Of a stretch of 34,481 bases of DNA, positions 2,007 through 20,732 are shown one piece after another. The stretch's first letter is position 1. Each line of letters starts with the position of its first letter. The translations under genes and the position numbers were made by a program. The stretch comes from a virus: IMG/VR virus record IMGVR_UViG_3300023284_000732, positions 1 to 34,481 of that record; one strand, written 5' to 3'. The notes beneath the pieces are model-generated. The model was given only the letters and a program-made list of their open reading frames with translations, was not told where the DNA came from and did no database searches.

Positions 2007-2659
2007 ATCTGTGTTCCATTCGCGTGGGTGATGTTAGTCTGGACTGTAACTATGAGACCAGTGTCAAGGAGTTGCCCTGCTCCGATTACATGAAGAATGA
2101 GAACGCCTCCAGATGCAAGAGTCAAGACGCCTGCCTCTGTGATGGTTTTGGGTGGAGTAATATCAGCAGATGTGTAGGCTGTGCCATATCTTTCAGTCTG
2201 ATTGACAACTACTCGGTCGCCTATTGTCTTCCGTCCCACCTCTGTCTCGAGAGCGGTGTCGCCGAGTGCGGCGGCAGTTGTTCCAGTTCCAATTGCATGA
2301 TGAGTGTTTGTTGTGGACACCTCAGCAGTCGAACGCTTAGCCATCTCTTGCATTCCAACGTTTGGGAGGAGGTTCTTGAGTCTGTCTGAATAAGATAGGA
2401 CGCGAGGGTCTTGCATTCCATTGATTGCAGTTACTGATTGAGGTCTGGCGACTGTGTTCTTCTCTGTACTTGCAATCTCAGCCCAGAGTTTGTCAAGTTT
2501 GCTGATCAGTCCTGGTTTGTTCTCAAGGAATGGGACTTCGTCTGCATTCCAGGTTGCAAAGTTCCAAAGATTATGAGTTAAAGATAAGTGAATCGGATCA
2601 AAGCCATACTTTGCTTTCACTCCCTGCTTGAAGAGCCAGTCGGCGAGTCTGTCTCTCAT
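2003..2659 (-). CDS. Virion protein, fibre or baseplate accessory, with C-terminal beta domain
   Basis: The first 110 of 218 residues look helical (RDRLADWLFKQG, FNLWNF-like and KLWAEIAS stretches). The rest is a beta domain containing GTGTTAAALGDTALETEV, RYGTAYTSAD and ITEAGVL. Almost the same order of motifs occurs in the protein at 21308 to 21907, so the two probably share a jelly-roll-like domain. Both ends overlap neighbours as ATGA, so it is made together with the LamG-like and HxH proteins. The exact role is unknown. Confidence 0.6.
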   Translation of the reverse strand: MRDRLADWLFKQGVKAKYGFDPIHLSLTHNLWNFATWNADEVPFLENKPGLISKLDKLWAEIASTEKNTVARPQSVTAINGMQDPRVLSYSDRLKNLLPNVGMQEMAKRSTAEVSTTNTHHAIGTGTTAAALGDTALETEVGRKTIGDRVVVNQTERYGTAYTSADITPPKTITEAGVLTLASGGVLILHVIGAGQLLDTGLIVTVQTNITHANGTQI

Positions 2660-3624
2660 GATCCTATGAACATCCCTGCGAAAGCGTTTGGCATCGCTAT
2701 TAGTGAATCAATGTAAGGTAAAAAAGTAATTTCCTGTAGACCAGAGGCATCAGTGTCATGATCTAGGATGCCATCGTCATGGAAGGAGTCTATCCATGTC
2801 TGATTTAGTTCGTCGTTATACATTGCAATCCCAGCGAGTGCAATGCCTGTCTCAAGGAGTGCAGTTCCAGCAGCGCGTCCCCAAATTCCCAAGTTTGTCG
2901 CAGTGACTGAGATTGCGCCTGTTGGCGTTGCATCGAGTGCTTGTGTTTTGTTGACGTATGACCTGAAGCCGTTGGTTGTATCATAGGAGAAGCCAAAGGA
3001 CACCCAAGCATCATTCGGGATGGTCACATCAATGGTGACAGTGCCTGCTCCTCTGGTTAATGAGAATCTGAGGTTGGTCTTTGTAGTTAGTCCGACCCAG
3101 TATTGCAAGTCATCTTTATGGACGACGTACTGCGTGCTCCCGACTGTTGCGGTGCTTGGAACGTATATCCAACCAACGATAGCAATCTCATCAGTCGGAT
3201 TGAGAAGAGCATCATCATCAATAATCTGATATTCTGTTCCGACTGTTCTGGCTCCTCCTGAATACTTGAGACCATAGTCGCCAGTCTTGAACTCTGTGTC
3301 TCCTGGTTTGATGAACTCGATGAGGGTTGCATTTGTGTCGGTATGGATAAGATCATAAGCATCGACTAAATCTGGGATGTTCTTTCTGAATCCTAATAGT
3401 CCATAATCATCTGCATCCACTGGCTCATCGAAGTTTGGTGCTCCGAGGACGATAGTTGTGTCATGAAGGTCTACAAGTGGAGCGTACATGAACCACTTGA
3501 TGATGGCGTCGTCTTCGATTGGTTCATTGGAACGTTGATATGATGTGAGTATCTGTGCAATCTTTTCGACGCTGATGGTTCGAGATTGCTGATTCAGATT
3601 GTCTGCAAAGGAACGACTACTCAT
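2656..3624 (-). CDS. LamG / concanavalin-like tail protein
   Basis: The 322-residue reading starts at the ATG that overlaps the hub stop as ATGA; the frame is open further upstream inside the hub gene, but that part is not needed. Residues about 110 to 290 hold a concanavalin-like pattern: GDYGLKYSGG, EIAIVGWIYVP, WVSFGFSYD, RSYVNKTQALD, LGIWGRA, GIAMYNDELNQTWIDSFHDDG. LamG-type domains bind glycans or surface proteins. It is placed just after the baseplate hub, so a host-surface-binding tail component is likely. The N-terminus (NQQSRTISVEKIAQIL) may bind the tail. Confidence 0.65.
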   Translation of the reverse strand: MSSRSFADNLNQQSRTISVEKIAQILTSYQRSNEPIEDDAIIKWFMYAPLVDLHDTTIVLGAPNFDEPVDADDYGLLGFRKNIPDLVDAYDLIHTDTNATLIEFIKPGDTEFKTGDYGLKYSGGARTVGTEYQIIDDDALLNPTDEIAIVGWIYVPSTATVGSTQYVVHKDDLQYWVGLTTKTNLRFSLTRGAGTVTIDVTIPNDAWVSFGFSYDTTNGFRSYVNKTQALDATPTGAISVTATNLGIWGRAAGTALLETGIALAGIAMYNDELNQTWIDSFHDDGILDHDTDASGLQEITFLPYIDSLIAMPNAFAGMFIGS

Positions 3625-5282
3625 AGGAACACCTTTGCCACATATACCAACATGTTCTCGGCTCCAAGATTGCCTCCATCGATTGAAGATGCGCCTATAC
3701 CGAATCCCATAATGTCCACTGTGTCTTCCAGGCCAGTCGCAGCATCTATGACCTCGCATGTCTTGCCTAGATCAAGATAGTCGTCTGGAGTTGAGCAGAC
3801 GATTGGATTATAGATGCGTTTAATCTTAGATAGGTTCTCAAGCATGCCTTCCATCGCAACAGTGGCAGAGTCTTCATCTGGGAAGTCAGACAGGTCCATA
3901 GTGTGCTCCTTGTCTCGCAGTGATCGTCTTGCGACTACGTTCTGACCGATGATGTGCATTGTCTTTGAGTGGTAGGTTCTGAACTTGATGTCTCCTGTTT
4001 GTGAAGCACCATTGAGATAGTAAGTTCCAGTTGCAGCCTGATAATCTATTCTCAGTTCACCAGAGTCAGGATAAGCGTCGATTAGGATGGCATATTCAGT
4101 ATTCGCTTCGAGTGCGATCTTGCTGTTGAATGCTATCTCAATATAGACGCCTCCTGTTGTTACTTCCCTCTCGAGACGTTCGGCAGATATCACGATTCTC
4201 TGTTTGACTGCATTTGGATCAGGGATGCCACCGCTATCAACATCGACGATGCAGACATGAAGGTCTTTGTCTACTGTTCCAACCTTGCTCAGGAAGAGTC
4301 CGACCTTTGTGATGTTGTCATGAGCAGCAGTAAACTTCCAGGATGTGTTTGTTGTCGCAAGGTCTTCAAGTGAGTCAGAGGCGGTTTGGTCTGCGTCAAG
4401 GATGTGGTTTTGTGCTCCAGTTCCATGAATGATAGTGAAACCTGAGTCAATTGTTGAATCTTTATAGTTAAATCGCTGTTGTCTGCTGATCAGTAGTTTA
4501 GCAACAGGCCAACCAGTTGTCTTTAATGATGAGAGGTCGTTTGTAATCAAGAAACCTGACGGAGTTGAGCCTCGTAATCTAAGAAACGCATCTTTGAGCG
4601 GCGTGATGCCATATAGTGCTCCTGCAATGTTGGCGAGTTCGTTGCAAAGTGAACCAATACTCACAAAGTCCCTCTGAAGGTCAGGTAGTTTGATGTCTAT
4701 CGTGTCCACGCCGACGACTGTGATCCCAGTAGTTACACCGCCAGGGAATGCAAGGTGATCAGTGTCTTCAAGACAGTCTTTGAAGAGTTCTGAGACTCTT
4801 GCGTTTGTGTCGGTTGTATCTAAGTCAAGACCGCCAGATAGTTTCTTTTGAAAGCGTCTGATTCGTGAGAACTTCTTGGCAGTTAGTATTCCCCATCCAA
4901 TAGCGGTGATTTTGATCATTGTGATGGTTCCTTCGACTTCAATCAGTTCAGGCTCTTCGATAATACCATCGAACCACGTTTCAAGACCTGCAGCATCCTT
5001 GCCGAGGTTGATTATGATCTCCCAACCATTCTTAATCTTGATAGGACGTCCCAAGTCAGTCGTATCAAGCAAAGCCTGGTTCCTGTCATCGATGGTGATG
5101 GTAGCAAGCCCATGGAATGTATTTACACCTCCATCGATGCTCCAACCGGCCAGATCAAAGTCTTTTGTGGGTGATGGGTCGATTGCATCGTGTTCCCAAG
5201 TGTATTGAGTAGCACCTAAGAGGTCTTTGATTATGATCTGAGGGTTCAGACCATCTGCATTGAATCCTGATGGATAACTCAC
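3621..5282 (-). CDS. Baseplate hub / tail tip protein with inserted jelly-roll domain
   Basis: This 553-residue protein lies directly after the tape measure gene with a GTGA overlap (GTG start). The N-terminal 230 residues (AGWSIDGGVNTFHGLATITIDD, GWEIIINLG, WFDGIIEEPE) and the C-terminal 120 residues (RRSLRDKEHTMDLSDF, YNPIVCSTPDDYLDLGKTCEV) look like tail-hub sequence. Between them, at about residues 285 to 430, sits a carbohydrate-binding-like jelly roll (KVGLFLSKVGTVDKDLHVCI, GGIPDPNAV, LEANTEYAILID). Hub proteins close the tail tube and organise fibres. Assignment is from gene order and these patterns, and the inserted domain could be a separate adhesive unit. Confidence 0.65.
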   Translation of the reverse strand: MSYPSGFNADGLNPQIIIKDLLGATQYTWEHDAIDPSPTKDFDLAGWSIDGGVNTFHGLATITIDDRNQALLDTTDLGRPIKIKNGWEIIINLGKDAAGLETWFDGIIEEPELIEVEGTITMIKITAIGWGILTAKKFSRIRRFQKKLSGGLDLDTTDTNARVSELFKDCLEDTDHLAFPGGVTTGITVVGVDTIDIKLPDLQRDFVSIGSLCNELANIAGALYGITPLKDAFLRLRGSTPSGFLITNDLSSLKTTGWPVAKLLISRQQRFNYKDSTIDSGFTIIHGTGAQNHILDADQTASDSLEDLATTNTSWKFTAAHDNITKVGLFLSKVGTVDKDLHVCIVDVDSGGIPDPNAVKQRIVISAERLEREVTTGGVYIEIAFNSKIALEANTEYAILIDAYPDSGELRIDYQAATGTYYLNGASQTGDIKFRTYHSKTMHIIGQNVVARRSLRDKEHTMDLSDFPDEDSATVAMEGMLENLSKIKRIYNPIVCSTPDDYLDLGKTCEVIDAATGLEDTVDIMGFGIGASSIDGGNLGAENMLVYVAKVFL

Positions 5283-7690
5283 ACCAGGTTCGCCTCTAGC
5301 ATTGCTCTTTCATCAAATGCTTGCTTGTTTGCGAGGTCGATTGCTGCCTGTGCTCTTTGTATCTCTGCAAGTGCAGCATCTGCTTCTGCTTGGAGTCTTT
5401 CTGCTTCTTGTCTGAGTGGCAGTTCTAAAGCGAAGTTGATTCGAGTGGCTAACTGTGTCCTGATTGCTGATTGTGTTGCAGCACCTGAGCGGAGACGTGA
5501 TGCGGATGAGGCTCCTGTTCTTCTTGTCATTGGTGCGGCACCTACGCCAAGTCTGAAATTGACATCAACGCCTCCAGCCTCTGCTTCTTCAAGTATCTGT
5601 TCTGCACTGGTTCCAACCTTTGCGAGTTCAATGTTCAGGAGTTTGACTCTTGCTCTTGCGAGTGCTAGTAATTCGGTCGAGTTTGTAACCTCATCGGGAT
5701 GAATGAGTCCAAAGCGCGCAGCCAGGAAGACAACTTCTCTCTCTTCTGCCGATACACGACCAACTCCACTGGTTCTTAATCTTCGTGATTGTCCACTAGA
5801 GAGTGCTCGTCTTTGGAAGCCAGTTCCGAGGACTGTTCTGACAATACTTCCCAGAGCGCTTATTCTTTGACCTTCATCTGAGTTTCTGAATGTCTTTTGC
5901 TGTGCTCTTCGTTGGATTGCTAGGTTCAGTCCGAGTCTTTGTTGATCAGTTACTCCAGCACCTCCAAATTGTGGTCCGCCTGATGCGAAGTTGTTGAATG
6001 ACCTTGCTTGGAATGTTCTGATGGCATTTAATGCCTGTCCGCCTTGTGGGGTCGGCAGATTAGTGAGAATACGACTGGAGATTGGTCTCAGACCTTGTCT
6101 GATGGTGCCTTCATTTTGTGTGACGAATGTTGATCTAAATCCTGCTAGTTGTCTGCCAGTTTGTGAGAAGATGCCATTCCTACCGAACAGAGTATCAACG
6201 AATGACTCCGATGTCTCCGCGGAAACCGTTCGGGATAAGTTCTCTCGTTTTTTTTTAAAGGCGTCCAGTTCAGCACCTGCGGTGCCTGCAGCAGAGCCAA
6301 CATTGACGAAGCCCTGTTCTAATAAGTCAAGATCAGTGATAAGTCCTTGCTGTAAGTCAACTCCTAACTCGTTAGAGATGTCTTTGAGGTCAGTCAGTTC
6401 AGCGGTTGCGCCAGTTGCAGCAGTTGCAACATCTTCAAGCCCATCCTCTGCTTTGGGGAAGACACTTTGAACAAGAGTCTCGACTGCTGTTAAGATTGGA
6501 ATGAACTTCTTCAGCCACTGCCACAATTCAACAACCGCCTCCTGGACTCCGAACGCATTGGTCTCCCATATCTCAAATGCGACGCCGATGGCAATCATTG
6601 CAATGCCAAGTGGACCAAGTGCAAACATAAAGGATCTGACACTGATGCCAAGGGTGCGGATTCCAACTGATGCGCCAGCCATTCCGAGTCTGAACTTCTT
6701 CATGCTGAAGATCAGTCTGGTGAAGGTGCTGTTCATTGCAAGGAGGTGGAGTTTGCTTCCAATTACTGCTCTGTTCAATCCTGGGAGCATTGTCTTTGTC
6801 AGGAATAGCATCATGAGACCAGTGTTGGCTATAGAGATGGTCATGTTGATGTATGTGTCCTGTAAATCATCAGCAACTTGGAGGGCGTCGTCTTCTGCAA
6901 TCTTGATGTCCTTGAGTTTGACTGCATAATCATCTGTCGCAGTGATTAGTTTCTGATTTTGAAGTGCGAGGTTTGCCTTTGCGATGGTGTAAGTGTCGGT
7001 CGCTTGTAGTCCTTGCTCTTCCATCTTTGCGACTGATAATGTGAATCGTCTGACTGCGAGTTGAGTGGATGAGAGAAGGTCGTTTGCTCTTGCGAGTCCG
7101 ACTGTGCTCTTCTCGACTTTCTGATGTGCTTTGTTAAGTGATAGTTCTGCTTTATTGAGATTTGACATGCCTGTGAACGTGGTTCCGATAGATGTGCCAA
7201 GTGCTGCAATTCCTAGGATCATAACTCCAGATGAAGCGGTTGCTGTTTGAGTTGCGAGGTTTAATTGGCGGACTGAGTTTGTCGCTTGGTTCATACCGAC
7301 TGCAACCTGACCGCCTGCTCTTGAACCTGCGGCGCCGAGGTTTGCCATGCTTGTCGCGCCTGCTGTACCTGCGGATGACAGTTTCTGCTTTGTCTGATCT
7401 GCGCTTGTTCCGATTTTGCCCAGTGCCTGCTGACCTGTGACTCCTAGTGAACTCATCTTCTGTTTGGTTTGGTCTGCTGATGAACCTATCTTGTCAAATG
7501 ACCTTTTGCCTGCGTCTCCCATTGAACTGAACTTCTGCTTTTGTGCATCTGCGGCTGTCCCGACTTTGTTGAGTGCTGTCTTGCCTTCATCGCCCAGTTT
7601 CTTGACTGCATTCTTTGCTTTGTCGGCGGACTGGACAAACTTGTCGCTCCTTAGTTCAATTGTAGCAATACCTTTAACGTTACTTGACAC
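5279..7690 (-). CDS. Tape measure protein
   Basis: This is the longest protein (803 residues) and lies downstream of the tail chaperone and gp10-like genes, as is usual. It has long helices and three hydrophobic segments near residues 155 to 172, 290 to 303 and 353 to 373. The N-terminus holds three near-identical 25-residue repeats (32 to 56, 57 to 81, 82 to 106) with the core ADQTKQKxSS. The C-terminal third is Arg- and Gln-rich. Tape measure proteins set tail length; at about 1.5 angstrom per residue this predicts a tail near 120 nm. The GTG start is supported by a promoter box exactly 20 bases upstream. Confidence 0.85.
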   Translation of the reverse strand: MSSNVKGIATIELRSDKFVQSADKAKNAVKKLGDEGKTALNKVGTAADAQKQKFSSMGDAGKRSFDKIGSSADQTKQKMSSLGVTGQQALGKIGTSADQTKQKLSSAGTAGATSMANLGAAGSRAGGQVAVGMNQATNSVRQLNLATQTATASSGVMILGIAALGTSIGTTFTGMSNLNKAELSLNKAHQKVEKSTVGLARANDLLSSTQLAVRRFTLSVAKMEEQGLQATDTYTIAKANLALQNQKLITATDDYAVKLKDIKIAEDDALQVADDLQDTYINMTISIANTGLMMLFLTKTMLPGLNRAVIGSKLHLLAMNSTFTRLIFSMKKFRLGMAGASVGIRTLGISVRSFMFALGPLGIAMIAIGVAFEIWETNAFGVQEAVVELWQWLKKFIPILTAVETLVQSVFPKAEDGLEDVATAATGATAELTDLKDISNELGVDLQQGLITDLDLLEQGFVNVGSAAGTAGAELDAFKKKRENLSRTVSAETSESFVDTLFGRNGIFSQTGRQLAGFRSTFVTQNEGTIRQGLRPISSRILTNLPTPQGGQALNAIRTFQARSFNNFASGGPQFGGAGVTDQQRLGLNLAIQRRAQQKTFRNSDEGQRISALGSIVRTVLGTGFQRRALSSGQSRRLRTSGVGRVSAEEREVVFLAARFGLIHPDEVTNSTELLALARARVKLLNIELAKVGTSAEQILEEAEAGGVDVNFRLGVGAAPMTRRTGASSASRLRSGAATQSAIRTQLATRINFALELPLRQEAERLQAEADAALAEIQRAQAAIDLANKQAFDERAMLEANLV

Positions 7691-16817: not shown

Positions 16818-19096
16818 CTAAGGGAAGAAGTCGTCTGGTTCAATATCAATATCGTCCAAAGTGCAGACGCAGTTCAGATGTGTGTCGTCAACTGGTTGAG
16901 GCATTGTTCCGTCTCTGACTTCCCACACTTGTCCTTCATATTGAGTGCAGAGGTCATCTTCTGCTCCATGAAGAACCCATACCTTTCCAGGAATAGGTTC
17001 ATCATGTTCGGCGTTTAGTTTTAGGTTTTTTTTAGGATATGATCCAAGTCATGAAGGTCTTTGCGGAGTTTGGCTAATCTGCCCATCTTCTCCATCGAGT
17101 CTCTACCGACTCCAATAACCATTCCTATCTTGTTGATCTCCTTTATGATCTTGTCACGACGCTCAAGGTATTGTTTCTTTACGATTGAGACCTTGACCTT
17201 TGGTTTGGCTTCGATCTTGACTGTTGGGTTTGTGTGCTTTCTGAATAGTTTGAATAGTCTGCCATTCTTGATTAATCTGAGTTTGTTTGGCACGCCTTCA
17301 GGTATCATGCACATTGGAGTCCCATCTACTTCGCCAAGCACCCATCCATCTGGACAGTTGCCATCTGCATCTGGTTCGATTGGTTCTTCTTGGTTCTCCA
17401 TTATCTTCTCGCACATTCCAGTCTCTTCGTTTAGTTTCCAGCCTTCATTGCATGTGCCGTCTTCGTTTGGTTCGACTGGATCTGGATGTTCTGCATTTGG
17501 GTCGTTGCCAGATTCATCAGCAGGTTCTTGATCTGGTTCTGCTGTTCCGCCTCCGCCAGGTGATGCTTCGAATCTGTCACAGGTATCGGTTCCCAAGATG
17601 TCACCAGAGACGATTGCACAAACACCTGGTCCAGCCATATCTGAGGGATCAAGTGCAAAGAACCATCGGCACTCTTGACACATTGAGCCTTCTGCTCCTG
17701 GACCATAGTTGACTTCGTCCTTTCCTAGTTGATCAATATCTTTGAGTACCTTCAAGCCGTCTGCATTATGTTTGATTAATGAAAGCGCAGCAAGTTGTTT
17801 TGAGTGTTGGAGTAGTTTAGCGTTCTGAGCCATCTCAGTGATGTGTCTGAACCATGCAACCAAGTCCTCGGCTGACATGTTCTCATACTGGTATTGATTG
17901 AGGGCTTCTGGGTGAGCAAATAGATAATCTGCCATATCTGAAGCGGTTGTTTCAGGAATACTCTTCTCATCGACTAAGAAAGCGACGATTGAGGTCTTGC
18001 CGTCGTTCCAGACTCCTGTTTCAGTGTTCATATAGTTATCAAGTTCATACTGGGCATGTAGTTTCTTGTTTTGTCCCAAGAGGATGGTCTTCATTCGCAT
18101 CCTTGGGTCTTTGTTTAGTTTGAGTTTAAGTTGAGCAATGAGTTCCTCTGATGGTCTCTCAATTATGGTTCCAACATCTTCAGGACCAAGTGCTTGAACC
18201 CATGTGCCGTTTGAGTTTGGCACTTCTTCGAGGATGAAGGTGTTCATCAAGAAGTGTGAGCCTTCAATTGTGCATTTGTTGCAGACATCGCCTTCCTTTT
18301 GGTCTGTTCCGCAGTCACATGTCTCTTTTCTGTAGTAATCAACGACTGAGCATCCTTTGAACTTGGCTTTTAGAATCATATCATAGACTAGAGGGTTTGT
18401 ACATGCGCCAATGAACTCAACCTGAGCGTATTCTTTGCCTCCAGGTTCTGTTTTGTTAATTTCAACTGCAGCATCAATAATGAATGCTGGAGGATATGGA
18501 TTAATCAAGTCCTTGCCGTATTTCTCGAGATATGATTGAGGAATCTCTGCAGCAGTCTCAAAGTGGTCAATATCCATAAGGGCGACTCCCATCATTGCGG
18601 CTGTGCTCATTGCGCCAGTTGCAAATATGAGATTGTCTTTGTCCATCTTCTCACCACGTTTCATCTCTCCTGATTGCATTGCAACTCCTTTGAAGAGCAT
18701 GAACTCCTTCTCCTCTCCTGGTGCGAGCATTAATGGAACTGGCCAGGCGAACTTATGTTTGAGTGAGTGCTTTTTGGTAACTAAATTCCGTAACATTGAT
18801 TCAGGTGTTGGTTCTGTGATTGCATCTGTCTCAGGTGTTGTATCTTCAGGCATCACACACATTGGGATTCCATCAAGGTCTTTGAGTTCCCATCCATCTT
18901 GACAGTTGCCATCTGCATCCGGTGCAATTGGTTTGTGTTCAGCGTTGGAACTATCTTCATAGAGTTTAAAGAAATGCTTGTAAATTGCAGAGTCTTTGCT
19001 CATCTTCATCGTGATAATGTCGTCTTTTGTGAAGCCTATTGTTTCGAGGTACTTGTAGAACTTGGCTGCAATCTCTTCGACGGTCGGATGAGTCAC
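16818..19096 (-). CDS. Prohead protease fusion extended by -1 frameshift with minor-head-like Cys/His tail
   Basis: A -1 slip on A AAA AAA at 17033 to 17027 would replace the final Thr and stop with 69 further residues, giving 759 residues in all. The extension contains GKVWVLHGAEDDLC, YEGQVWEVRDG, then MPQPVDDTHLNCVC. The order C...GxVW...D...P...HxNCxC matches the zinc-binding end of SPP1 gp7/Mu gpF-type minor head proteins. In this frame no ATG, GTG or TTG precedes the first part of the motif after the last stop, so independent translation could not make it whole. Either programmed frameshifting or a homopolymer sequencing error explains it. Confidence 0.6.
17021..19096 (-). CDS. Prohead protease (XkdF/U35-like) with Cys-rich extensions, zero-frame form
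   Basis: The protein has 691 residues from the GTG at 19096, fixed by a box exactly 20 bases upstream. Residues about 110 to 270 resemble a phage prohead protease: GVALMDIDHF (candidate His 178) and KFKGCSVVDYY (candidate Ser 250), with a CxC/CxxC insert after the Ser. Around 472 to 507 is a cluster MCQECRWFF...GVCAIVSG...DTCDRFE. Three modules with the pattern DGxCxxGWxL...MC lie at about 58 to 85, 543 to 567 and 575 to 601, flanking the protease. A basic helical C-terminus may act as scaffold. It should mature the capsid proteins. Confidence 0.7.
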   Translation of the reverse strand: MTHPTVEEIAAKFYKYLETIGFTKDDIITMKMSKDSAIYKHFFKLYEDSSNAEHKPIAPDADGNCQDGWELKDLDGIPMCVMPEDTTPETDAITEPTPESMLRNLVTKKHSLKHKFAWPVPLMLAPGEEKEFMLFKGVAMQSGEMKRGEKMDKDNLIFATGAMSTAAMMGVALMDIDHFETAAEIPQSYLEKYGKDLINPYPPAFIIDAAVEINKTEPGGKEYAQVEFIGACTNPLVYDMILKAKFKGCSVVDYYRKETCDCGTDQKEGDVCNKCTIEGSHFLMNTFILEEVPNSNGTWVQALGPEDVGTIIERPSEELIAQLKLKLNKDPRMRMKTILLGQNKKLHAQYELDNYMNTETGVWNDGKTSIVAFLVDEKSIPETTASDMADYLFAHPEALNQYQYENMSAEDLVAWFRHITEMAQNAKLLQHSKQLAALSLIKHNADGLKVLKDIDQLGKDEVNYGPGAEGSMCQECRWFFALDPSDMAGPGVCAIVSGDILGTDTCDRFEASPGGGGTAEPDQEPADESGNDPNAEHPDPVEPNEDGTCNEGWKLNEETGMCEKIMENQEEPIEPDADGNCPDGWVLGEVDGTPMCMIPEGVPNKLRLIKNGRLFKLFRKHTNPTVKIEAKPKVKVSIVKKQYLERRDKIIKEINKIGMVIGVGRDSMEKMGRLAKLRKDLHDLDHILKKT
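17027..17033 (-). promoter_or_regulatory. Slippery heptamer A AAA AAA (-1 frameshift candidate)
   Basis: Codons CTA AAA AAA ACC TAA put A AAA AAA in phase four codons before the stop. The run is eight A on the minus strand. The -1 frame continues for 69 codons. Confidence 0.6.
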
Positions 19097-19116
19097 GAGT
19101 ACCTTTTGTGATGTTA

Positions 19117-19128
19117 AACTTAAAGAAG
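19117..19128 (-). promoter_or_regulatory. Promoter box before protease gene
   Basis: The minus strand reads CTTCTTTAAGTT, ending 20 bases before the GTG at 19096 and beginning just after the upstream stop. It supports the GTG start over the ATG at 19165, which would lie inside the previous gene. Confidence 0.65.
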
Positions 19129-19130
19129 TG

Positions 19131-20732
19131 TTAGTCTGAAGCAGCGAACAAAGCCAAGATATCATCCGCAGTCATCGTCTTCTTCTTGTATTCATCCAGA
19201 GCCGTCTTTAATGATTCAATGAACTCCTTCTGAGCATCACCTTCGCGCTTTAGTTGCTTGATATGTTTCAAAAGAGCAGTCAACTCTTTATCCTTCAATT
19301 TCAGTGATTTGATGAGTGATTGGTGCTGTTCTTGCTGAATTTGGGTAAGTGCGCGCAGGTGATCGCTTACTTTGTATTCTGTTAATTTCAGCCTCAAAGT
19401 TGATATTAATCGCTCCTTTTGCTTCAAAACCAGATTAAGTTTGAATTTAGTATGATCTTTGGTTAGCCACTTCTCAGGCTGTTTGATGAGGGTGGTTAGT
19501 GACTCTCTTTGGTAGAGTCTGAGTCCGATTGTGCTTGATATCGTCGCAGATGTTAGTTCTTTCTTGAAGAGAGTGACTTGGAGGAAGACTGTGAGTCTTT
19601 CCGTTGTTGGAGGTTCGTGAATTGGGCGCAGTGGTTTGATTGCTGATGGTTCATTCCTTGGTTGTACTGCTGAAGGAGGTGCAGCAGTGGTCTCGATGAC
19701 AACAGAGTCAGAATGAGTGAGTGATTGTGCAATTGCTCTTGCGAATGTTGACAATTGAGCAATGGCTTCGGAGTGAGTCAGAATTTGCGACGCGATTCTG
19801 TTGAATGTAGAACCTGCTCGACTGACTGCATCAATATGTGTCAGGGTTTGTGTGGCAGTCCTCATCGCTTCAGTGATCTTGGCAATTGATTCAGAGTGTG
19901 TGATGATCTGTGATGCTGTTCTTGCAACACCTGTGATGATTGCAACAACCTCAGAATGCACCAACGTTTGAGCAGCAGTGACAAAGCGTTCGGTGAGTTT
20001 GGCGATGCTCTCGCTATGAAGTAGGTTCTGCGCAACTATTCTCGAATACTCTCGCAGAATTACGACAGACTCGGAATGTGTCAAGGTCTGTGATGCTGTC
20101 ACTGATTTGCCAAAGCCTGAGACAGCAGAGTCAATATGTGTGAGTGTTTGTGCAGGTGCTCTGTTTGCTCCTTTGATTACTGGATTGACTGATGAGTGTG
20201 TCAGTGTCTGGGATGCGGTAACTTCAAAAGCCGTGCCAGACGCATCGAATGGCACTTCAAGCAGAGAGTCCACATCATTGACGACCATGGTGATCCCTTC
20301 ATTTCCATGGTTTGCTGGTCTTGTGGTTAGTATCTCCATGACAAGTCTGTCACCTGTTGCTCCTGCAGCAGGGTTGATGCTAGTTGGAGCATATACGAAG
20401 GGTCCAGTTGAACTCTGAGACGTTGAGGTTGCTAGTATCTCGGCTCGTGAGTCAGTTGATAGATATCTGGAGAGTTGAATCTTGAAGGTAGAGTTCGCAC
20501 CAAGGACAGAGCATTCCACTCCGCCTCGATATGTTCCTGTCGCCCAGTCTGCATCGCTTAGTTGTGGAGTTGCCCAAGTTACATCATTCCTGTCTGTGAC
20601 GTTGGCTTGGACAGTCCAAGCGATGTCAGTTGTGTCAGTTCGTGATGCAGGTGCTTCTTCGTTTGAGTCTGAGCCTGCGGTAATGTTTGAGTCAGTTGCA
20701 TTCTGTCCTTCTGGTTCAAAGAGTTGCACCAT
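19131..20732 (-). CDS. Fibre-like protein with nine THSES repeats and helical stalk
   Basis: The protein has 533 residues from the ATG overlapping the upstream stop as TAATG; a GTG nine bases earlier is the alternative. Residues 1 to 170 form a beta domain (DIAWTVQANVTD, NSTFKIQLSRYLS, GDRLVMEILTTRPANHG). Residues about 175 to 365 hold nine degenerate 20-residue repeats with the core ASQTLTHSES(I/V). A Pro-rich linker follows, then a Lys/Leu-rich coiled coil to the end (LKLKDKELTALLKHIKQLKRE). Such a head-stalk-anchor plan suits a virion spike or fibre. Thr/His/Ser repeats of this style occur in surface proteins of Nitrososphaeria, which would hint at the host. Confidence 0.6.
   Translation of the reverse strand: MVQLFEPEGQNATDSNITAGSDSNEEAPASRTDTTDIAWTVQANVTDRNDVTWATPQLSDADWATGTYRGGVECSVLGANSTFKIQLSRYLSTDSRAEILATSTSQSSTGPFVYAPTSINPAAGATGDRLVMEILTTRPANHGNEGITMVVNDVDSLLEVPFDASGTAFEVTASQTLTHSSVNPVIKGANRAPAQTLTHIDSAVSGFGKSVTASQTLTHSESVVILREYSRIVAQNLLHSESIAKLTERFVTAAQTLVHSEVVAIITGVARTASQIITHSESIAKITEAMRTATQTLTHIDAVSRAGSTFNRIASQILTHSEAIAQLSTFARAIAQSLTHSDSVVIETTAAPPSAVQPRNEPSAIKPLRPIHEPPTTERLTVFLQVTLFKKELTSATISSTIGLRLYQRESLTTLIKQPEKWLTKDHTKFKLNLVLKQKERLISTLRLKLTEYKVSDHLRALTQIQQEQHQSLIKSLKLKDKELTALLKHIKQLKREGDAQKEFIESLKTALDEYKKKTMTADDILALFAASD

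Follow-up and report, generated by a model that had tools for sequence, protein, structure and literature searches.

Introduction

Recoding, whereby a minority of the products of a gene acquire a C-terminal extension through a -1 (or +1) frame change, is known from the assembly modules of tailed phages, with lambda G/GT and other recoded structural genes as examples, and capsid extensions produced by recoding have been proposed in Listeria phages. In tailed viruses of haloarchaea, -1/+1 recoding is believed to underlie the G/GT tail chaperones (PMC8211752; PMC5009743), and a 2021 review listed one proven -1 frameshift in archaea alongside predictions in these same haloarchaeal chaperones (PMC8211752). 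Among cellular genes, Saccharolobus solfataricus fucA1 and the archaeal Mg-chelatase shift by -1 at A-rich heptamers (A_AAA_AAT and A_AAA_AAR), fucA1 with a flanking stem-loop and rare codons. In magnesium chelatase reporters, frameshifting rose with the length of the poly-A run, from 10% with 7 As to 40% with 9 and 63% with 11 (PMC3711429), and hence a bare A run can suffice. Two families of head proteins are also relevant here: the MuF/SPP1 gp7 minor head proteins (PF04233, TIGR01641), whose C-terminal end carries a Cys/His motif, and the XkdF, S78 and P2 gpO-like protease-scaffolds, which combine a herpes-protease-like fold, an invariant His and an invariant Ser with a C-terminal part resembling a coiled coil. 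As is established for SPP1 gp7, MuF proteins are portal-associated. A MuF-like protein and a capsid maturation protease are fused in frame in Microbacterium cluster EG phages (PMC7302621), and the arrangement of the protease is fluid among thaumarchaeal proviruses (PMC6563490).

The locus described here, in a 34.5-kb IMG/VR virus record analysed over its whole length (hereafter, the window), shares elements with each of these systems and differs from all of them. As in lambda G/GT, an assembly-module gene would yield a minority product with a C-terminal extension, but the gene is a putative head protease-scaffold and the extension a MuF-type Cys/His end. Relative to MuF/SPP1 gp7, with which it shares the C-terminal motif, this extension lacks the N-terminal MuF domain, has Tyr or Trp in place of the second Cys of CxxC, and is attached through a change of frame. 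The Microbacterium fusion is one ordinary gene for a MuF-like protein, whereas here only the MuF end is involved and presumably only a fraction of the copies carry it. The -1 shift at an A-rich heptamer recalls fucA1 and Mg-chelatase, but those are cellular enzymes, while the gene here belongs to virus assembly and its A run is bare. Finally, the upstream ORF shares its predicted fold, the invariant His and Ser and the coiled-coil-like C-terminus with the XkdF, S78 and P2 gpO-like proteins, but differs from them in matching no sequence model and in having extra Cys-rich modules besides the recoded tail. The fusion of protease and tail is very likely a real product, given the conserved layout, the coding character of the tail, its MuF homology and the predicted protease fold, although no protein or RNA data are at hand.

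Putative Slip Site and Reading Frames

All genes here lie on the minus strand of the window. The zero-frame ORF (17021-19165, minus strand) encodes 714 aa, comprising a domain of predicted prohead-protease fold, Cys-rich modules and a C-terminal coiled-coil-like (scaffold-like) region, and its 3' end reads TTG GAT CAT ATC CTA AAA AAA ACC TAA. An A8 run (17026-17033, minus strand) holds the heptamer A_AAA_AAA in phase (17027-17033). In the -1 frame no stop interrupts 17048 to 16821, and the frame closes at a stop at 16818-16820 (stop-to-stop frame 16818-17048); its tail (16818-17027, minus strand) has 69 codons plus the stop. A slip by -1 would read AAC CTA AAA CTA AAC GCC and onwards for 69 codons to that stop, adding the residues NLKLNAEHDEPIPGKVWVLHGAEDDLCTQYEGQVWEVRDGTMPQPVDDTHLNCVCTLDDIDIEPDDFFP, among which VWVLHGAEDDLCTQYEGQVWEVR is an example of a peptide of the -1 frame. 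Ahead of the Cys/His motif, ATG, GTG, TTG and CTG are all absent from this frame, the sole start-like codon being one ATT. A sequence-only reading of the window had claimed the in-phase run close to the end of the protease ORF, the 69-codon -1 frame and the lack of a normal start before the motif, and all of these held.

Poly-A runs of this length are not rare in the window, where T8 has three overlapping matches, from two runs, against 2.8 expected. A match alone is thus unremarkable, and it is the place and phase of the run across three lineages that exceed chance. From the density of runs of at least eight As on the coding strand of the three lineages (2 per 34.5 kb, 2 per 21 kb and 3 per 15.3 kb), we calculate a chance of about 1e-7 that such a run falls inside all three ORF overlaps (28, 61 and 55 nt), a figure that leaves out the conservation of frame and protein.

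Elsewhere in the window, a second A run, an A9 at 6248-6256 (minus strand), lies within an 803-aa ORF (5279-7690) and recurs in the same phase in the nearest relative (L011 6567-6575), inside a homologous ORF of 873 aa; it could conceivably be a further slip site, with a truncated product. Two large ORFs, 3621-5282 and 2656-3759 (both minus strand), share 139 nt, each in a different frame, and relatives of both are present in the nearest virus.

Relatives and Conservation of the Layout

Single-sequence searches of IMG/VR and phage records with the protease or the tail returned no relatives. A search with the major capsid protein led to the nearest relative, IMGVR_UViG_3300010939_000098, whose portal is 74% identical to that of the window; that contig breaks off within the major capsid gene at one end and past the portal region at the other, so that the slip region is missing and the record counts neither for nor against the layout. 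A two-row portal alignment yielded L014 (JAPOPJ010000073.1), a 21-kb contig placed in the bin of a Thaumarchaeota MAG, and an alignment of two protease rows yielded two IMG/VR contigs, L020 and L021. The proteases of these three are about 35-39% identical to that of the window and the L014 terminase is 41% identical, and the lineages must therefore be old. L020 and L021, closely related to each other at 93% DNA identity, were counted as one lineage, leaving only three that are independent. On the basis of one MAG contig and of gene likeness, these viruses probably form a small tailed group with ammonia-oxidising archaea/Nitrososphaeria as hosts.

More distant protease homologues occur in two Nitrososphaeria genomes, L018 and L019, and a reading of the DNA beside them revealed no tail; these XkdF-like proteases (L018 3972-5489 and L019 35-1219, both minus strand) follow the portal gene and have different ends. 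A weak tail-like ORF in another genome, G330, sits at a contig end and cannot be interpreted. Both L020 and L021 have a low-complexity repeat ORF (SAAR/SAAE/SAAW; L020 3-581) ahead of the packaging genes.

The layout is conserved in all four records that cover it (the window, L014, L020 and L021). In each, the protease ORF is followed by the tail in the -1 frame, and A_AAA_AAA lies in phase within the overlap, two to five codons before the zero-frame stop. The relation between the frames is always -1 in the three distant lineages, even as the run varies between A8 (window) and A9 (the other three) and the slip codons between CTA AAA AAA ACC (window), CTA AAA AAA AAG (L014) and GAA AAA AAA AGC (L020/L021). 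No relative compared (L014, L020, L021) joins protease and tail in a single-frame ORF, and no ATG, GTG or TTG precedes the tail motif in the window, L020 or L021, L014 having one TTG. Comparison with related genomes had been set beforehand as a test of the sequence-only reading, which named runs of seven or nine As with both parts in one frame as the alternative; the outcome was favourable, with the same in-phase run and -1 tail in L014, L020 and L021 and the two parts joined in none.

The tail is, moreover, conserved as protein in the same relative frame. Despite proteases only about 35-39% identical, 23 of its residues are invariant across the four records (consensus W..HGA.D..CTQ..G..WE...G..P.P..DTH.NC.CT.D). 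When L020 is compared with L021, dN is 0.041 and dS 0.194 for the tail in its -1 frame, where 11 of the 17 changes fall at third positions, and the relation is reversed when this DNA is taken in the zero frame (dN 0.086, dS 0.020); the -1 frame is thus under purifying selection between these two viruses. A change-free stretch of 104 nt spans the slip in this pair, the longest such gap inside the protease ORF being 72, but the spacer past the tail is similarly quiet and the point is weak alone.

A Tail Homologous to the C-terminal End of MuF Proteins

Across the records the tail is about 69-85 aa long and consists mostly of the motif and a variable linker, the last 45 or so residues forming the Cys/His end. 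In the window, the MuF/gp7-type motif W-VLHGAEDDLC-TQYEGQVW-...-P-x-P-..-H-LN-C-V-C (16863-16979, minus strand) was delineated by tail alignment, profile search and hhalign. Where tails alone matched anything in PHROGs or NCBIfam, the models were almost all for head morphogenesis and the matches below threshold (PHROGs 4728, 1657, 241 and 4611, and the last third of TIGR01641); the tails scored 12.9-13.7 bits with TIGR01641, short of its curated cut-off of 39.65, and had no Pfam match. A profile built from four tails and searched over 250 genomes of the family of the MAG had two clear best matches beyond L014, in G052 and G448 (E 9e-7 and 8e-6), both in ORFs of 272-276 aa directly after a portal-like gene, with the stand-alone MuF motif CPTC/CPIC ... 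DG ... P.PV.D.H.GCRC. These two, L023 and L024, are stand-alone MuF genes adjoining the portal in other Nitrososphaeria proviruses: that of L024 exceeds the cut-offs of both PF04233 (30.0 bits) and TIGR01641 (44.0 bits), and that of L023 falls below both yet is significant.

Comparison of the tail with MuF by hhalign gave 95.7% probability. The tail is therefore homologous to the C-terminal end of MuF/SPP1-gp7 proteins, and is not a full MuF protein, the N-terminal MuF domain being absent from its 69-85 or so residues. This upholds, with one qualification, the earlier likening of the tail to the zinc end of SPP1 gp7/Mu gpF: in the recoded tails, CxxC has Tyr or Trp where its second Cys would stand. 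The metal ligands would then probably be C-H-C-C, metal binding itself being inferred. By sequence, the tail has no match among solved structures, and its structure model is of low confidence (pLDDT 59), too weak for use. Neither a PF04233 search of the window (E<=10) nor a motif scan of the fetched DNA of its relatives found a separate MuF gene, and these viruses probably do without one.

Predicted Protease Fold of the Upstream ORF

The sequence family models of Pfam, PHROGs and NCBIfam do not match the 714-aa ORF, and the label of protease, also given in the sequence-only reading, consequently rests on a predicted fold. An AlphaFold2 model of the protease domain (18113-18793, minus strand), made from six sequences, has a pLDDT of 71. 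Its top matches by VIA-align are the varicella-zoster (VZV) protease (Z 8.9 over 121 residues) and T4 gp21 (Z 8.6 over 124), and each of the best 20 rows is a herpes or prohead protease; matches in BFVD include XkdF, prohead proteases and the scaffolding protein of phage KSP20. Unlike VIA-align, Foldseek against the PDB gave no significant match for the domain. The ORF is thus predicted to have a prohead/herpesvirus-protease fold (clan S78, XkdF, U9, S21), with His201 (18563-18565, in DIDH) and Ser273 (18347-18349, in GCSVV) as likely catalytic residues, a role inferred, like the activity, from their invariance across six relatives. Beyond the domain come Cys-rich modules and then a charged, coiled-coil-like stretch up to the slip, an arrangement that appears reminiscent of protease-scaffold proteins. 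The ORFs of the window, L014, L020 and L021 have a CxxCRWF...C...C Cys module and repeated D.DG.C..GY/W....G..MC units.

Putative Slip Signal and Alternative Explanations

No conserved stimulatory RNA structure was found downstream of the slip in the four records, and no clear Shine-Dalgarno-like site was seen upstream. The window has a hairpin at 16967-17006 (minus strand; 120-nt fold, z -3.9), but some 20 nt separate it from the run upstream and it is not seen in the relatives, whose slip regions fold no better than shuffles (z -0.4, 0.9 and 1.1 in L014, L020 and L021), and it is therefore probably not a stimulator.

The most serious rival concerns only the machine that slips. In transcriptional slippage, RNA polymerase would add one A within the A8/A9 run and the ribosome would read a continuous frame, with an identical product. 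The A9 runs of L014, L020 and L021, the lack of conserved stimulators and the range reported for transcriptional realignment (An, n>7; PMC3711429) keep this possibility in play. Against it, the run of the window is merely A8, the heptamer stays in phase in every lineage though its flanks differ, and a limited literature search found nothing useful on slippage by archaeal polymerases. The constant phase tips the balance slightly to the ribosome, and transcriptional slippage remains a close second. The frameshift put forward in the sequence-only reading is supported, with the qualification that the slip may be transcriptional.

The remaining alternatives, which deny the recoding or the expression of the tail, are all very unlikely. 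Homopolymers are prone to sequencing and assembly errors, and one inserted A would join the frames of the window, so that the true run might be nine As (or six) and protease and tail one ordinary ORF; yet the -1 relation holds in at least three separate viruses, whose runs of 8, 9 and 9 differ in their flanking codons, and none has the joined ORF. Were the tail instead a separate small protein, begun at an unusual start codon of its own or by ribosomes that reinitiate once past the protease stop, the TTG of L014, eight codons ahead of the motif, or the ATT, ATC or ATA codons scattered in all the records could serve. However, ATG, GTG and TTG are absent in the window, L020 and L021, no alternative start has a conserved position, and the conserved in-phase A run would be left unexplained. 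That one Cys and the N-terminal MuF domain have been lost might suggest an unexpressed, decaying remnant of a lost MuF gene, which is hard to square with a motif invariant over three distant lineages and with purifying selection between L020 and L021.

Proposed Model and Implications

We consider one recoded gene with two proteins the likely best explanation overall. Most copies would end at the zero-frame stop as a capsid protease with a scaffold-like C-terminus, and a fraction of expression would slip by -1 at the A8/A9 run, more plausibly, by a small margin, through tandem Lys-tRNA slippage on A_AAA_AAA, and otherwise through the addition of one A to the mRNA by RNA polymerase, a route we rate just below even. 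The slipped copies would gain the tail of about 69-85 residues ending in the MuF/gp7 Cys/His end, and by analogy with MuF this tail may dock them at the portal vertex, a minority of the protease-scaffold being anchored there. The slippage itself, its machine, the ratio of the products and the docking are inferred. As regards the two protein forms in fixed ratio envisaged at the outset, the existence of both is very likely, and the fixed ratio and their presence in virions remain inferences.

The partial literature searched contained no report of a recoded protease/minor-head pair or of conserved recoding in a head gene of an archaeal virus. Recoded phage head proteins are already known; what is probably new is the pairing of a protease with a minor-head tail. 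The locus adds a case of conserved recoding in a head gene of likely Nitrososphaeria viruses, with an unusually simple signal, and standard gene calling would miss the minor head module in these viruses. If the model is true, capsid protease, scaffold and minor head protein are joined in one recoded gene, which offers a way of counting portal-linked copies. A bolder reading, no more than possible at present, is that in archaeal head-tailed viruses a conserved -1 recoding produces a subpopulation of portal-docking protease-scaffold, that the separate MuF gene has been lost, and that recoding sets the number of proteases at the portal vertex.
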